Source: Verrucomicrobia bacterium IMCC26134 | GTDB taxonomy: Bacteria > Verrucomicrobiota > Verrucomicrobiia > Opitutales > Opitutaceae | Length of the DNA: 64,000 nucleotides | Direction: 5' to 3' | NCBI GenBank assembly: GCA_000972765.1 | Contig: CP011265.1 | Location: 186,001 to 250,000, forward strand | Part shown: positions 28,214 to 34,863 of the stretch, piece after piece | How positions within the stretch are numbered: the stretch's first letter is position 1 | Layout: the number at the start of each line of letters is the position of its first letter | Position numbers and translations under genes: made by a program | The notes under the pieces: generated by a model | Told to the model about the DNA's origin: nothing | Seen by the model: only the letters and a program-made list of their open reading frames with translations | The model's database searches: none

Positions 28214-29142
28214 TCAGTTTATCAACAGGACCAGTTTTCCGCAGGTATGGCCGCGCTGGCTGAGCTCCTGGGCGCGTTTGGCGGCGGAGAGGGGGAGAAT
28301 GGTTTCGACGTAGGACGTGAGTTTTCCGGCATCGATCAGACGGGCGAGTTCCGCCAGCTGGCCGGCGTTTGACTGGGTGAAAATGAAGCGCGCCCGCACC
28401 TTGTGGGCGGTCGCGAGCTCGGTGGAAGGCGGGTTGACGATCGAGACAAGGAAGCCCCCGGCTTGAGCACTTTCAATGAACGGGTCTGCGTATCACCGCC
28501 GATCGTATCCAGCACCACGTCCACGGGCGCGACCACCGTTTCGAAGCGCTCCGTCTCGTGGTCCACCACCTGGTCAACGCCAAGCCTGCGGAGGAAATCG
28601 TGGTTTTTAGCGGAGGAGGTGCCGATGACGTGGGCGCCCTTCCATTTGGCGAGCTGGACGGCGATGTTGCCGACTCCGCCGGCGGCGGCGTGGATGAGGA
28701 TGCGTTGACCGGCCTCCAGGCCGGCGGTCTCGAAAAGCGCCTGCCATGCGGTGAGGCCGGCCAGCGGTAGGGCGGCGGCGTGGACGTGGTCGATGGATAC
28801 GGGCTTCAGTGCGACCTCGGATTCCTTGATGACGATGAACTCTGCATAGGCTCCGTCCCGTGTGATGTCGGGCTTGCTAAAGACCTCGTCTCCGATGCGA
28901 AGACGTTTGGTGTCGGGCCCGACTTTTTCTACAACCCCCGAGACATCCCAGCCCAGAACCAAAGGAAAGGTGTGATGTAATAGAGTGTGGAGTTGCCCTT
29001 CGCGGATTTTCCAGTCGATCGGATTGACCCCGGCAGCATGCACCCGCACCAGAACTTCGCCGGCTTTATGCCTGGGGCGGGGGATTTCCTCGTAGCACAA
29101 AACCTCCGGCCCGCCGTGCGAGTAGATGGATACGGCTTTCAT
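28214..29142 (-). pseudogene. Zinc-independent quinone oxidoreductase-like (MDR family), frameshifted
   Basis: The N-terminal 240 residues are intact: MKAVSIYSHGGPEVLCYEEI, the GroES-like fold (HAAGVNPIDWKIREGQLH), and a Rossmann NADP site ILIHAAAGGVGNIAVQLAKW. After LKVLKPG the frame shifts at a run of five G on the coding strand (28455-28459 as C on plus). Adding one G restores FLVSIVNPPSTELATAHKVR joined to ARFIFTQSNAGQLAELARLI and the proper C-terminus GHTCGKLVLLIN. So this is one gene with a 1-base deletion, either a true mutation or a read error in a homopolymer. Its ATG overlaps the stop of the hybrid kinase gene. Confidence 0.82.
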
Positions 29143-31097
29143 CAATTCATAAGTTGGCGTGGCGGACTGGTGGTGCCGGCCGGTTCGGCGAGAACCTCCT
29201 GGATCATCTCCAGCAGGGTCTCCGCCGTGTAGGGCTTCAGTAGAAAATTTTTCACGCCGATGGCTTTGGCCCGGCCGTATATTTCGCCCGAATCCATGCC
29301 GCTTGAGGCGATGATGCGTATTTTAGGATTCAGCTTTCGCACCGCTTCGATGGTATCGACGCCGTCGAGGACGGGCATCATCAAGTCTGTGATCATCAAG
29401 GCCACCTCGCTCACGTTTGCGGCGAAAAGCTCGATGGCCTTGGAGCCGGATCCGGCGGTCAAAACGCGGTATCCGTAAACTTCGAGCACCTGCCGCGTGA
29501 TGTCGCGTATGGAGCTCTCATCATCCACGATCAACACGAGTTCCTTGTGACCGGTCGGGGGCTGGTGGAAGCCGGAGCCAAAGACCGCCGTGGCATTGGC
29601 CCGGTTTATCGCCGGAAGGTAGATGCTGAAGATAGATCCTTGATCGACAATGCTCTCGACGGTTTTGAATCCACCGTGGCGCTTCACGATCGCATCCACG
29701 CTGGCGAGACCGATTCCGGTGCCCTTGCCCTCTTTTTTGGTCGTGAAAAACATCTCGAAGATACGGGCGACCACGTCGGCGGACATGCCTTGTCCAGTAT
29801 CGCTGACTTTGATTAAAACATAGGGACCGGGGGGGGCCTTCTCGTTGAGGGGCACGCCTTGGTCTCCGATTAACTGATTGCTGATTTGAATCGTGAGCTT
29901 TCCTCCGTTCGGCATGGCATCCCGGGCGTTTACCGCGAGATTAAGCAAAACTTGATGGATCTGCGTGGGATAGCCGACAACGAGCCACAGGGCGTCGGAA
30001 GCATTGAGGTCGATTAAGATGTTACGGGGAAACGTATGTCGGATGATGCCGCCGAGCTCATCGAGCATGGGGCCCAGATTAACATAGATGCGCTCTCCAT
30101 CCATGCCGCGCGTAAACTCCAAAACCTGGCGCACGAGATCAGCTCCGCGTTTCGCGCTGTTGTTGATCACGTCCAGGATACGTCCCTTGTGCTGGTCGGT
30201 GCTTGTTTTGTGTTTGAGCAGGTCGATGGACAGCATGATCGGCGCGAGCACATTGTTCAGGTCGTGCGCGATGCCGCCGGCCATTGTGCCGATACTGGCC
30301 ATGCGCTGGGCGCGCAGATACTCCGCCTCAATGGATTTTTGCGTGGTGAGATCCTGCATGCCGCCGACCATGCGCACGGCTTTCCCGAATTCATCGCGAA
30401 CGATGTAGCCGCAGTCATGGACCGACGCATAGGTGCCGTTTTTCCGTTCGAAGCGGTAGTCGTCGCGCCAGGTTTCCGCTTTGGAGTCGATCGCCAGCCT
30501 GAAGCTCGTGGTGACGCGCAAAGCGTCCTCCGGATGCAAGCGCTCAATCCACGAGTCTATGGAATTCGAAACTTCCCCGGCTGAATAGCCGAAGGTGCTG
30601 TAAAAGCCATCGCTCCACCAAAGGACATCGGTGCGCAGGTTTAGATCCCAGACGACATCGCTCACGGCGCGGGAGATCAGACGAAAGCGCTCCTCGCTTT
30701 CGCGCAGCTCCATTTCGCATTTTTTACGCAGCGAGATGTCGCGGATGTTGCATTGAATGATGTGCCGATCGCCTTCCGGGTAGAGATTACACACGCATTC
30801 GACGTCGATCTGTTGGCCGTCGCAGCGCCTCAGGGGCAGGTCATCGTAGCGAACATACCCGGAAGTGCGAAGGACTTCAAACATCGCCTGGCTCTCGGCT
30901 TCGTCCTTATGCAGGCCGATTTCGAACATCTCTTTGCCAATGATGTAGTCACGCGGGCGGTCCATCAAATCAGCCAGGTAGGGATTCACGTCCACGATCT
31001 TCCGCGTATCCGGATCGATCAGCAGGATGCCATCGCGCGCGGCCTCGAAAAGCCGACGATAACGTAATTCCGATAGAATGAAGGCGGCGGAGGACAT
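29142..31097 (-). CDS. Hybrid sensor histidine kinase: PAS-PAS-HisKA-HATPase-REC
   Basis: 651 residues, soluble. PAS 1 is at about 10-125 (ARDGILLIDPDTRKIVDVNP) and PAS 2 at about 135-250 (VVWDLNLRTDVLWWSDGFYS, PAC DLTTQKSIEAEYL). His278 lies in GTMAGGIAHDLNNVLAPIML. The ATPase has LLNLAVNARDAMPNGG, VSDTGQGMSADV and GKGTGIGLASV. The C-terminal receiver at about 518-640 has acidic pair Asp525/526, phosphoacceptor Asp571 (MITDLMMPVLDG) and the Lys in FLLKPYTAETL. HDLNNVL-type kinases commonly phosphorylate their own receiver. No output domain is present. The stop overlaps the start of the oxidoreductase-like gene. An inverted repeat lies just upstream of its start. Confidence 0.93.
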   Translation of the reverse strand: MSSAAFILSELRYRRLFEAARDGILLIDPDTRKIVDVNPYLADLMDRPRDYIIGKEMFEIGLHKDEAESQAMFEVLRTSGYVRYDDLPLRRCDGQQIDVECVCNLYPEGDRHIIQCNIRDISLRKKCEMELRESEERFRLISRAVSDVVWDLNLRTDVLWWSDGFYSTFGYSAGEVSNSIDSWIERLHPEDALRVTTSFRLAIDSKAETWRDDYRFERKNGTYASVHDCGYIVRDEFGKAVRMVGGMQDLTTQKSIEAEYLRAQRMASIGTMAGGIAHDLNNVLAPIMLSIDLLKHKTSTDQHKGRILDVINNSAKRGADLVRQVLEFTRGMDGERIYVNLGPMLDELGGIIRHTFPRNILIDLNASDALWLVVGYPTQIHQVLLNLAVNARDAMPNGGKLTIQISNQLIGDQGVPLNEKAPPGPYVLIKVSDTGQGMSADVVARIFEMFFTTKKEGKGTGIGLASVDAIVKRHGGFKTVESIVDQGSIFSIYLPAINRANATAVFGSGFHQPPTGHKELVLIVDDESSIRDITRQVLEVYGYRVLTAGSGSKAIELFAANVSEVALMITDLMMPVLDGVDTIEAVRKLNPKIRIIASSGMDSGEIYGRAKAIGVKNFLLKPYTAETLLEMIQEVLAEPAGTTSPPRQLMN

Positions 31098-31419: not shown

Positions 31420-32619
31420 TCAGACTGGGGGCTGAAAGGGGATACGGGTCACGATTTTCGTGCCGGCGCGTGGGGCGGTCTTGATCTGGAAAGTGCCTCC
31501 GACGTGATTCGCGCGCTCGCGCATGCCGAGCAAACCCAAGTCGATCATGCCCCGTCGTCGAAGGGAAGGCAGTGCGGGGTCGAAGCCGACGCCATCGTCT
31601 TGTATGCTCAACCTGACACCGTCGGGCGAGCCGTTCAGGCGGACGATCACGTGGCTGGCCCGGGCGTGGCGCTCGATGTTCTGAAGTGCTTCCTGGAGGA
31701 TGCGGTAGAGCACGAGCTCGGCCTCGGCCGAGAGGCGGGTGTTGAGCGTATCGCAGGTGAGGCGGAGTCGTATGCCGGTGCGCCGGGCAAACTCAGTGCA
31801 GGTGCCTTCAAGCGCGGCGGCCAGGCCGAGGAATTCCAATACTCCGGGCCGCAGGTTGCGGGAGATGCGCTCCACATCGGTGCTGGTCCGGCTGATCATT
31901 TCACGCAGGGCCAGCGCTTCTTCCCGCGTGGGGCCTTCGTATCCGGCCAGACTGACCGCGAGGGTCTGGCTGCGGAAGAGGACGGCGCAGAGCATCTGGG
32001 TGATGTTGTCGTGCAAATCGAGCGCCACGCGCCCGCGTTCGGCCTCTTGGACCTCCGCGACGCGGTTGGCCAGGGCGCGCAAGCGCTCCTCATTGCGCCG
32101 CGCCTCAGTCATGTCCGTGACCACCATGCCGAGGGTGACGAGGGCGGAGCCCGGATCGACGAGGCGATGGATCGAGATCTGCGCCGGGACAGAGGCGGCG
32201 TCGCCAGTGATGAGCCTGACCTGGATTTTATGGTCCGCCATCGCGCTGCGTTTCAGGAGCGTGCGCAAGGCGGACAGATCGGCGGGGGAGAGGAAGCGGC
32301 GGAAGGAGGTGCCGGTCACCTGTTCCAGCGGGGTTTTGACGAGCCGGGCGAAACACTGGTTCGTAAACAGGATCGTGTGGTCGGATGCGAGGGTGAGCGC
32401 GCCCTCGTTCATGGTCTCGATGAGCATGCGATAGGTGTGCGCGGCTCCGTTGAGCGTGAAAATATGCGATCCCTGTTTACCCGCGACGAGGACGGTATCC
32501 ACCTCGCCGTTGCGGATGGCCCGCAGCGTTTGCTCCGTTTCGGCCAGGCGCGTGCGAACGGCGGCGAGTTCGCGCGCCGGTGTGGCACGTGCGGGGGCGG
32601 GTTTTCGCTTCGATTTCAT
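31420..32619 (-). CDS. NarL-type sensor histidine kinase with PAS domain, KaiB partner
   Basis: 399 residues from the ATG at 32619, which overlaps the kaiB-like stop region. The N-terminus is a coiled-coil (ELAAVRTRLAETEQTLRAIR, NGEVDTVLV), PAS at about 60-175 (MNEGALTLASDHTILFTNQC). The HisKA_3 helix carries His203 (ERGRVALDLHDNITQMLCAV). The ATPase domain shows LVLYRILQEALQNIERHARA, SIQDDGVGFDP and LGLLGMRERANHVGG. A frame extension to 32826 is basic, overlaps kaiB and is rejected. In cyanobacteria the kinase SasA reads KaiC state; here coupling of a kinase directly to a KaiB-fold gene is seen without KaiC. Confidence 0.9.
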   Translation of the reverse strand: MKSKRKPAPARATPARELAAVRTRLAETEQTLRAIRNGEVDTVLVAGKQGSHIFTLNGAAHTYRMLIETMNEGALTLASDHTILFTNQCFARLVKTPLEQVTGTSFRRFLSPADLSALRTLLKRSAMADHKIQVRLITGDAASVPAQISIHRLVDPGSALVTLGMVVTDMTEARRNEERLRALANRVAEVQEAERGRVALDLHDNITQMLCAVLFRSQTLAVSLAGYEGPTREEALALREMISRTSTDVERISRNLRPGVLEFLGLAAALEGTCTEFARRTGIRLRLTCDTLNTRLSAEAELVLYRILQEALQNIERHARASHVIVRLNGSPDGVRLSIQDDGVGFDPALPSLRRRGMIDLGLLGMRERANHVGGTFQIKTAPRAGTKIVTRIPFQPPV

Positions 32620-32954
32620 GTGGCGGTGCTGGATCTGACGGCCAGATCCAACTCCACGAGCAGGCTGTCCAGGGCGGCGAGATTTCCCATGTGGCGGCGC
32701 ACCGGGAGGGGGATCTCCTTGATGAGGGTGGGCGTAACGACGATCTGGTGCAGGCGGGCGAGTTCCGGCTGTTGATAAATGTCGATGACCTTCAGATCGT
32801 AGCGACCGGCGAGCTCGGTTTCGCAAAACCTGCGGATAAGCAATACGGCCTGGCGTGAGCGTGTGGTGGCGCCTGCGACGTAGAGCCGGAGGCTGATTTT
32901 TCCCCCGGCCGGAGTCCTTGTCCGAGGGGAGGCGGAGGTGGTTTTTTTAGGCAT
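32616..32954 (-). CDS. KaiB-like protein
   Basis: 112 residues from the ATG at 32954. After a 20-residue basic, disordered lead come LRLYVAGATTRSRQAVLLIR, YDLKVIDIYQQPELARLHQI and VVTPTLIKEIPLPVRRHMGN, the full pattern of the KaiB thioredoxin-like fold including the cis-Pro region (VVTPTL) and the final helix ALDSLLVELDL. KaiB proper binds KaiC in the cyanobacterial clock; many KaiB homologues outside cyanobacteria work in stress or are uncharacterised. No kaiC occurs in the window. It sits between a NarL-type regulator (62 bp upstream) and a kinase (4-bp overlap), so signalling by protein contact is a likely role (inference). Confidence 0.9.
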   Translation of the reverse strand: MPKKTTSASPRTRTPAGGKISLRLYVAGATTRSRQAVLLIRRFCETELAGRYDLKVIDIYQQPELARLHQIVVTPTLIKEIPLPVRRHMGNLAALDSLLVELDLAVRSSTAT

Positions 32955-33016
32955 GGGCGAACCGGCTGGATGTCGCCAAAGCCGTGGCGGACTCGGAGGT
33001 GGCACGGCGCGAAACC

Positions 33017-33703
33017 CTACAGGACTTCCCTTAGCAGATTGCTTTCGATCACGCCGGTGGAGATGGCGTAGCGGGTGAGGCCGGCGGTGTCGTGGATGTT
33101 GAGTTTATCCATGAGACTCTGGCGGTGCTTTTCCACGGTCTTGATGCTGATGCCGAGTGAGGCGGCGACCTGCTTGTTGGCGGCGCCCTCGGCGACGAGT
33201 TGCAGGACCTCGCGCTCGCGGGCGGTGAGGCGATTGCCGTTGGCCACGGAGTGGCCGTCGCGGTCGAGAGGGACCACGAGCATGAGCTGCATCCGGCGTA
33301 AAATCGCGGGACTGAAAAAAGGCTGGCCGCCGGCCACGGTGCGGATCGCTTTCGCCAGGATTTCCGAGGAAGTCTGTTTCTCGAGAAAACCTTGCGCGCC
33401 GATGTCCACGGCGCGGCTGACGTATTCATCCTCGTTATGGGCGGAGAGAATGATCACGCGGGCGGCGGGCTGCGCGGCCAGGATCTGGCGGGCGGCGTCG
33501 ATGCCGTTCAAAAAGGGCATCCCGATATCGAGCAGTATCACATCGGGACGCAGGGAGGCAGCGAGATTGACGGCCTCGCGGCCGTCCTTGGCTTCGCCCG
33601 CGATTTTGAAGTCGCCGTCGGCGTTGAGCAGCGAGCACAGGCCCTGGCGGACGACCACGTGGTCCTCGGCAATCAGCACGGTGATTTTAGGGGTGATGTT
33701 CAT
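33017..33703 (-). CDS. NarL/LuxR-family response regulator
   Basis: 228 residues. The receiver has acidic residues in VLIAEDHVVV, phosphoacceptor Asp59 (VILLDIGMPFLNGID) and Lys in GFLEKQTSSE. The C-terminal LuxR-type helix-turn-helix reads LTAREREVLQLVAEGAANKQ then VAASLGISIKTVEKH. It binds DNA as a dimer when phosphorylated. The start overlaps the stop of the upstream kinase gene by 4 bp, so that kinase is its likely partner; the kinase downstream of kaiB could also address it. Confidence 0.95.
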   Translation of the reverse strand: MNITPKITVLIAEDHVVVRQGLCSLLNADGDFKIAGEAKDGREAVNLAASLRPDVILLDIGMPFLNGIDAARQILAAQPAARVIILSAHNEDEYVSRAVDIGAQGFLEKQTSSEILAKAIRTVAGGQPFFSPAILRRMQLMLVVPLDRDGHSVANGNRLTAREREVLQLVAEGAANKQVAASLGISIKTVEKHRQSLMDKLNIHDTAGLTRYAISTGVIESNLLREVL

Positions 33704-34863
33704 GGGATTTTATCCGTCGGTGTGAATGGGATCTCCGCGCGCACGGTGGTGCCTTTGCCCTTGATCGACAGGAGGGTGAGGCGGCCGCCGACCATCTCGA
33801 CCCGCTCCCTCATGCCGAGGAGGCCCAGACGGCCACGGGTGCGCGCGATCTGAACTTTTTCGACCGCGAAAGATTTTCCATTATCGGCAACCTCCAGGCG
33901 GATGGCCCCGCCTTTAATCGCGCGGATCTTTATAACCACTTGGGTTGCGTGCGCGTGGCGGGCGACATTGGTCAGGGCTTCTTGCGCCACGCGGAAGAGA
34001 ACGGTGCGTTTGGCGGAGTCCAGGGCCTCGACACCGGCATAGGCGCTGAAGCGGATTTTCAGATTTTTGCGCACGGCGAGGTTCTTGCTGTAGGCGTTGA
34101 GCGCGGGGATAAGGCCGAGCGCGTCGAGCACGGCCGGCCGCAGTTCCCGTGCGAAGCGGTGGACGGCGTTGACCGAGTTCGTCACGAGGCGCTGGGTGCT
34201 TGCGATTTTGGACTTGAGGGCGCGCAGGCCGACCGAGGCACCCTTGCCGAGGGCGGAGAGCTCCACGTTGATGCCGACGAGCGTTTGCACCACGTCGTCG
34301 TGTAACTCGCGACTGATCTCACGCCGCTCCTCTTCCTGTGCGGAGATGATCTGGTGTGTCAGGCTGCGCAGTTTTTTCTCCATGATCTGGGACTTAAGGA
34401 AGAGCAACCGGTAGCGCTCCTTGGTCTCGTGGATGAGCCCCATGCTGGCTTTGCGCCGGGCGATCTCGCGTTCGAGCCGGCGATTGGCACGGGCGAGGGC
34501 GACGGCCTGCTGGCGCAGGGCCCGGTTACCGGCGATCAGGGTGCGGCTCGCCTCGCGGTTGGCGTTCTGCTCCCGATGCAAGGGAACCAGGGCGCGGGTG
34601 AAAAAACGTCCGGCGTCACGAAGCGCCGCATTATTACGAGTGGTGAAATCAAAGCGCCTGGCGAGGGCGAGCACCGCCTGCTCATGGATGATGGCCAGAT
34701 CGAGTGTCGCGAGCCCGCCGAGTTGGGCGGATCTTCCCAGCTCGGTCGCCTTCCGCATGCTTTCGGCGCCAGCCTGCGCGAGTTGTGCTTTCAAGGCTTT
34801 GTGGTAACGCAGGGCGAGTGAATGGCGGATGTCCTTTTGGGCGTTTGGGACGGTGGATGGCAT
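33700..34863 (-). CDS. NarL-type histidine kinase with RsbU-N/KaiA-like helical domain
   Basis: 387 residues, soluble. Residues about 15-95 (ALRYHKALKAQLAQAGAESM, then RKATELGRSAQLGGLATLDL and AIIHEQAVLAL) match the pattern of the RsbU N-terminal phosphatase domain, a four-helix dimer structurally related to the KaiA C-terminal domain. A long coiled coil spans 100-165 (RQQAVALARANRRLEREIAR). HisKA_3 has His188 (ISAQEEERREISRELHDDVV). The ATPase domain shows LFRVAQEALTNVARHAHATQ, LEVADNGKSF and GLLGMRERVEMVGG. The pairing with a KaiB-fold protein two genes downstream is notable. It starts the four-gene set; about 230 bp with no evident gene separate it from glnD. Confidence 0.88.
   Translation of the reverse strand: MPSTVPNAQKDIRHSLALRYHKALKAQLAQAGAESMRKATELGRSAQLGGLATLDLAIIHEQAVLALARRFDFTTRNNAALRDAGRFFTRALVPLHREQNANREASRTLIAGNRALRQQAVALARANRRLEREIARRKASMGLIHETKERYRLLFLKSQIMEKKLRSLTHQIISAQEEERREISRELHDDVVQTLVGINVELSALGKGASVGLRALKSKIASTQRLVTNSVNAVHRFARELRPAVLDALGLIPALNAYSKNLAVRKNLKIRFSAYAGVEALDSAKRTVLFRVAQEALTNVARHAHATQVVIKIRAIKGGAIRLEVADNGKSFAVEKVQIARTRGRLGLLGMRERVEMVGGRLTLLSIKGKGTTVRAEIPFTPTDKIP

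Follow-up and report, generated by a model that had tools for sequence, protein, structure and literature searches.

What can KaiB do in a bacterium in which no KaiC is found? KaiB is known mainly as a ligand of KaiC, and the question is raised by a locus in the genome of Verrucomicrobia bacterium IMCC26134 (label G000), which is 100% complete and consists of one contig of 4,001,000 bases. The stretch analyzed, referred to as the window, covers 64,000 nucleotides (contig CP011265.1, positions 186,001 to 250,000) and contains the single kaiB copy of the genome, here kaiB2, next to genes for two histidine kinases and a response regulator. We read this module, with a probability of roughly 0.65, as a kai operon that lost KaiC by internal deletion and in which KaiB2 still acts as a kinase adapter.

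A kai module in the window and the search for kaiC

The first-pass annotation of the window had described a minus-strand run of kinase, response regulator, KaiB and PAS kinase with two 4-bp overlaps. The four open reading frames (ORFs), their Pfam families and the overlaps, both of which read ATGA (33700-33703 between kinase and regulator, 32616-32619 between kaiB and the PAS kinase), were all recovered:

33700-34863, minus strand: histidine kinase of 387 aa, with a predicted N-terminal RsbU_N/KaiA_C-like four-helix domain, a linker, HisKA_3 (ELHDD, 44.8 bits) and HATPase_c (56.8 bits)
34537-34863, minus strand: the predicted KaiA_C/RsbU_N-like domain (aa 1-109), from the RsbU_N profile matches of homologues and a model compared with the PDB
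33017-33703, minus strand: NarL-type response regulator, with Response_reg (93.7 bits) and a GerE/LuxR helix-turn-helix (GerE, 68.5 bits)
32928-32963, minus strand: putative deletion scar at the kaiB start, similar in sequence to kaiC starts of relatives in the same genus
32616-32954, minus strand: kaiB2, a 'YQQP'-type KaiB (PF07689, 73.4 bits, scored on the ORF 32616-33005), modelled in the fold-switched, thioredoxin-like state
31420-32619, minus strand: PAS-HisKA_3 histidine kinase of 399 aa (DLHDN), with PAS, HisKA_3 (37.8 bits) and HATPase_c (49.2 bits), overlapping kaiB2 by 4 bp

The most likely start of kaiB is the ATG at 32954, located 62 bp past the regulator, rather than the upstream GTG at 33005, and in our reading the PAS kinase starts at the ATG at 32619 in place of the TTG at 32826. 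The HisKA_3 kinase with its H-box and the receiver-LuxR regulator are the two parts of a NarL/HisKA_3 two-component system. The H- and N-boxes of the kinases and the aspartate region of the receiver are all present in the module. The KaiB scored below the equivalog cut-offs of TIGR02654 (68.4 of 145.3 bits) and PRK09301 (71.9 of 110 bits).

As the first-pass annotation had supposed, no KaiC was found genome-wide with the ATPase-domain model PF06745 and the KaiC model NF006799. PF06745 gave two short, weak matches, in ORFs that we take by eye to be the housekeeping proteins RecA and DnaB, and NF006799 gave two weak matches, the best at 1.4e-6 (27.3 bits), with none at E<=1e-20 or 1e-10. A tblastn search of the module for a kaiC remnant, with a single KaiC as query (from the genome G181), returned matches only at E 0.93 and above. 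Of the components of a KaiBC or KaiABC oscillator, KaiB is thus present, and the double-domain ATPase KaiC was not found.

Kai operons of relatives and the start of kaiB

We compared the module to the corresponding loci of relatives, in which the order is kinase, regulator, KaiC, in some cases KaiB1, KaiB2 and PAS kinase. Two genomes of the same genus, G323 (loci L196 and L067/L086) and G322 (L066; 83% complete), carry the same genes together with kaiC. G323 encodes the kinase (533 bits), a regulator overlapping it by 4 bp (352 bits) and KaiC on one contig, and KaiB2 with the PAS kinase at the end of another. G322 shows the order regulator, KaiC, KaiB2, PAS kinase, with the regulator matching that of the window at 347 bits. 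The window KaiB clusters with the two KaiB2 proteins of these genomes with a support of 0.997. Beyond the genus, G181 (L034) encodes kinase, regulator, KaiC, KaiB1, KaiB2 and PAS kinase, and G374 kinase, regulator and KaiC. In G181, the kinase encoded ahead of the regulator (L034:2701-7407, plus strand) is a CheB-CheR-PAS-HisKA_3 protein of 1568 aa with no RsbU_N match at E<=0.01.

In the family sample of 252 genomes, 45 had a KaiB above the cut-off of 27 bits for PF07689, and KaiC was above its cut-off in 40 of these 45. The five exceptions are the window genome, G303 (no KaiC at 1e-20), G277 and G306 (partial KaiC) and G352, whose KaiC, in a separate cluster, is broken into two frames. G303 was rejected as a KaiC-free genome; a piece of KaiC lies at the edge of its contig. 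The first-pass annotation had proposed that the four-gene order be compared across relatives and that a kaiC elsewhere in all of them would speak against its reading; kaiC is indeed present in most relatives (40 of 45), but was not found in this genome. The best 80 GTDB loci of 573 relatives, a sample that leans towards close kin, have KaiC in 71 cases and two KaiBs in 63. Where 2.6 kb or more of upstream sequence was available (57 loci), KaiC preceded KaiB2 by no more than 900 bp in 54, the exceptions being L094, L136 and L141, and a kinase matching the window PAS kinase at more than 60 bits was found by script after KaiB2 in 74 of the 77 loci with room for it. Of the three remaining loci, L160 was missed because two matches touch, the kinase being present, and L094 and L141 are real exceptions. 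The lone KaiB2 loci L094 and L141 were rejected as KaiC-free, as KaiC is encoded elsewhere in their genomes.

The start of the window kaiB resembles a kaiC start. The 36 bases around its ATG are identical to the kaiC starts of G323 and G322 at levels of 0.72 and 0.61, respectively, and none of the others among the 211 candidate start contexts taken from the loci (59 kaiC, 62 kaiB2, 90 kaiB1) scores as high, with the best kaiB1 and kaiB2 contexts at 0.58 and 0.53. Among 1650 ATG contexts elsewhere in the window, the best value was 0.58. At the protein level, MPKKTTS of the window KaiB resembles MPKKRTS of the G323 KaiC. By the coordinates of G322, the net loss amounts to about 1.8 kb (1835 versus 54 bases). 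An internal deletion that fused the kaiC start to kaiB2 has probably left this region as its scar. The evidence for this is good, not final, and an origin of the module by internal deletion of kaiC is highly probable. Because relatives carry the same genes with kaiC and the kaiB start resembles a kaiC start, we consider the module to be a kai operon minus KaiC rather than an independent invention.

Flanks shared with G322 and G323 were not found around the module on the contig pieces compared. On the same strand, 322 bp past the end of the PAS kinase, follows a hybrid kinase of the PAS-HisKA type that includes a receiver (29142-31097, minus strand), with CckA as its best NCBIfam match, far under the cut-off of that model; it was excluded from the module because no clear counterpart was seen in the kai contig pieces of G322 and G323.

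Is KaiB found without KaiC elsewhere? A second case is the locus L073/L136 of G352, an Oleiharenicola metagenome-assembled genome (MAG), where KaiB2 and a PAS kinase are followed 3 kb on by a KaiA-like kinase and its regulator. No kaiC was found in 9.9 kb upstream of this locus, and tblastn with the G181 KaiC gave no match in 800 bases around the L073 kaiB2 start. In the phylum sample (383 genomes, of which 26 had KaiB above the cut-off), KaiC was above its cut-off in 21 of the 26, and none was found at 1e-10 in G000, G021, G491, G683 and G690. G683 was not counted, its KaiB being marginal (27.5 bits), nor was G690, whose KaiB pair is less than 1 kb from the end of its contig, which leaves G000, G021 and G491. 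In the order sample, G139 had no KaiC match, and G085 (a MAG, 88% complete) had of KaiC only an N-terminal fragment of 109 aa, flanked by KaiB and a hybrid kinase and possibly representing kaiC decay in progress. This fragment (L032:9701-9910, minus strand) has an altered Walker A stretch. Another KaiB is located beside large PAS hybrid kinases in G021, G139 and G085, and the KaiB of G491 (region L201:1798-9127), for which there is no KaiC match, is surrounded by receiver and kinase genes and by genes that look STAS-like and anti-sigma-like by eye. A kaiC may have been missed in G021, G491, G139 and G085, all of which are in many contigs, while G000 is not. Schmelling et al. (2017) reported bacterial KaiB only alongside full-length KaiC, in a set that was filtered for KaiC (PMC5520375). 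In the portions of the Kai literature consulted, which include PMC10076222 and PMC3164672 and lie mostly outside subscription journals, we recognized no published account of a kaiB kept without kaiC, or of a KaiA-like histidine kinase.

The N-terminal domain of the first kinase

The RsbU/KaiA-like domain that the first-pass annotation had proposed for the first kinase is supported by profile and model comparisons, with the score of the window member itself being below the curated cut-off. RsbU_N was the best Pfam family for all 14 homologous kinase N-termini at E<=10 (E 1.3e-7 to 0.043), and other families matched at most one member each. Four of the 14 scored above the curated 25.5 bits for RsbU_N, one was equal and nine, including the window member, were below. 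The match of the latter is weak, with 13.6 bits (E 0.08) for the whole protein and 16.3 bits (E 0.012) for the N-terminal domain alone; support for the similarity comes from the homologues. The annotation had named a lack of profile similarity to RsbU_N or KaiA as a ground against its reading, which was not the outcome. In a profile search of PDB sequences, the four best rows were RsbU (E 0.046-0.11). KaiA was matched by no member at the sequence level, either in Pfam or in the PDB sequences.

A model of aa 1-109 consists of four helices, with a predicted local distance difference test score (pLDDT) of 89. The best Foldseek match of this model was the KaiA C-domain 1q6a (probability 1.00, template modelling score 0.65, E 0.11), with nothing at E<=0.001. 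In a second structure comparison (VIA) the top seven rows were KaiA (Z 9.6-10.2, root-mean-square deviation 3.1-4.5) and RsbU scored 6.9-7.6; rows 8 and 9, a designed protein (Z 9.2) and a photocobilin protein (Z 9.1), nearly tie with KaiA, and the tool cautions that matches of helical bundles with Z under 13 may be due to chance. The domain differs in context from both relatives: it is located at the extreme N-terminus and the kinase follows next, with no KaiA-type N-terminal pseudo-receiver, and HisKA_3 and HATPase_c occupy the place of the PP2C phosphatase of RsbU. The RsbU_N and KaiA_C domains are known to be alike (PMC11372060). Because the structure matches agree with the independent RsbU_N signal and with this likeness, the assignment of an RsbU_N/KaiA_C-like domain appears credible, with the caution that applies to helical bundles.

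The domain was found in 51 of the 252 family genomes. Of the 45 KaiB-bearing genomes, 23 have it, against 9.1 expected (p 2e-7, in a statistic that ignores relatedness). It is not exclusive to kai, as 28 of the 51 genomes have no KaiB. In six genomes (G000, G352, G154, G323, G374 and G379) its distance to kaiB or kaiC is no more than about 4 kb. Of the GTDB loci, 49 extend 2.5 kb or more upstream, and 10 of these hold the domain, two of them weakly; most of these kai operons thus do without it at the locus. Five loci carry an additional copy in tandem upstream of kaiC, in which the domain is combined with a match to the dimerization and histidine phosphotransfer (DHp) part but not with a HATPase match; all are on the plus strand:

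L087:5732-6442, plus strand: domain and DHp match
L108:5819-6682, plus strand: domain and DHp match
L127:5821-6696, plus strand: domain and DHp match
L142:5025-5813, plus strand: domain and DHp match
L160:3714-4544, plus strand: domain and DHp match

The H-box histidine reads as Q in the tandem copies of L087 and L127, and a further short copy of the domain was seen in L098.

A possible role of KaiB2 without KaiC

The module looks intact. Among positions conserved in relatives, the window differs at 2 of 40 in KaiB2 (9th most deviant of 58), 11 of 138 in the PAS kinase (5th of 55), 6 of 86 in the regulator (4th of 30) and 4 of 85 in the KaiA-like kinase (5th of 22); the KaiB2 of L136 differs at none of the 40. 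Between G000 and G323, the ratio of nonsynonymous to synonymous substitution rates (dN/dS) was 0.35 for KaiB2, 0.21 for the PAS kinase, 0.34 for the regulator and 0.25 for the KaiA-like kinase. KaiB2 is mildly faster in evolution, yet constrained. No relaxation was seen in the KaiA-like domain, where own changes are 8:8, while the core of the kinase has 16:9 (p 0.52). The KaiB2 model has a mean pLDDT of 77 (77, 77, 73, 55 and 53 for five models) and the order of elements of the fold-switched state, with Legionella KaiB (4kun) as its best structural match along with fold-switched KaiB (5jwo/8fwj); how well AlphaFold2 distinguishes between alternative folds is under dispute (PMC11344769, PMC10836070).

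We suggest that an ancestral verrucomicrobial kai operon encoded a KaiA-like kinase, a NarL regulator, kaiC, kaiB2 and a PAS kinase, and that an internal deletion with a net loss of about 1.8 kb relative to G322 would have removed kaiC and fused its start codon to kaiB2. A contact of KaiB with one of the kinases is a reasonable inference: KaiB2, in its thioredoxin-like state, may serve as an adapter either on the overlapping PAS kinase or on the KaiA-like domain of the first kinase, and thereby set the strength with which the NarL regulator is phosphorylated. Without KaiC, such a module would act as a stimulus-driven switch and not as a timer. For the survival of a KaiB2-kinase function as such, we put the chances at even.

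Several observations weigh against this interpretation. The putative scar is a short context of 36 bases with an A-rich run, and the gene order in G323 was assembled from two unjoined contigs. G322 also lacks kaiB1, so that kaiB1 may have gone before kaiC, and a KaiA-like kinase was not found in G322, neither in the 835 bases before the regulator nor in the 83% complete genome. The L136 MAG has its split kaiC in another cluster and is KaiC-free at this locus only. For KaiB2, dN/dS between G000 and G322 was 0.47, and G000, G323 and G322 have 13, 5 and 6 own changes out of 92 amino acids, as compared to 33, 22 and 52 of 399 in the PAS kinase and 19, 23 and 17 of 224 in the regulator. The excess on the window branch gave p 0.0375 against both comparison genes pooled and 0.036 to 0.41 in single comparisons; together with the dN/dS values, this is weak evidence that fits relaxing constraint in KaiB2.

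The main rival of the adapter, which we consider the most likely mechanism, is a passenger KaiB2 in a decaying operon: kaiC would have been lost recently, kaiB2 would persist through its overlap with the PAS kinase, and the kinases and regulator would work as an ordinary NarL-type two-component system. In favor of decay are the slightly faster evolution of KaiB2 along the branch of the window and the 109-aa remnant of KaiC in G085, and loss of the system is common in the genus, since 12 of the 15 same-genus genomes sampled lack a kaiB match (found in three). KaiB2 is nevertheless of full length and retains 38 of 40 conserved positions, the motifs of the kinases are in place, and the pairwise dN/dS values are well below 1, although they average over the time before and after the loss of kaiC. 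We regard decay as possible, though rather doubtful. The view put forward in the first-pass annotation, that the module arose KaiC-free as a new clock-like or stress switch of its own, agrees with the missing KaiC and the KaiA_C/RsbU_N-like domain; the same genes with kaiC in the genus (G323, G322) and the family and the kaiC-like start of kaiB make it very improbable. The chances are slimmer still that KaiB2 has another ATPase of the genome as its partner instead of KaiC, for which the two weak PF06745 relatives are the candidates, both of which read by eye as housekeeping proteins.

The adapter interpretation has partial parallels in known systems. Bacterial kaiBC operons, including that of Legionella, have kaiC, whereas none was found in the window genome. 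Like the window module, the operons of Rhodospirillum, Rhodobacter and Legionella encode KaiB near sensor kinases (PMC10931921), and the Legionella KaiB has been described as a stress and not a clock protein (PMC10808063). In the KaiA3-KaiB3-KaiC3 system of Synechocystis, the neighborhood of kaiB likewise encodes a four-helix domain like KaiA_C/RsbU_N together with a receiver of NarL type; there, the two are combined in the single protein KaiA3 and KaiC3 is present (PMC11372060), while in the window the predicted domain is on a HisKA_3 kinase, the NarL regulator is separate and no KaiC was found. A KaiB-fold element also feeds a histidine kinase and response regulator in SasA-RpaA, with the difference that the KaiB-like domain is within the kinase SasA (PMC5520375), and in the window KaiB has a gene of its own and the two-component partners belong to the HisKA_3/NarL type. 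With the RsbU/RsbT stress switch of Bacillus, the module has the predicted RsbU_N-type domain in common, the effector being a phosphatase in one and a histidine kinase in the other; the RsbU_N domain of RsbU dimerizes, and the site proposed for its partner is the same as that for KaiC on KaiA (PMC11372060).

Few KaiA counterparts have been reported outside the cyanobacteria (PMC8113500, PMC11372060). A KaiA-shaped domain on a kinase encoded beside kaiC would, if true, be a candidate for such a counterpart. Tentatively, and with some doubt, the role of KaiA may in part of the Verrucomicrobiota have been taken by KaiA_C/RsbU_N-domain kinases that are addressed directly by KaiB2, in a pair able to outlive KaiC, with the window module and L073/L136 as clockless descendants. 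A genome with kaiB2 and the kinases from which kaiC has apparently been lost offers a natural test of the role of KaiB without KaiC.

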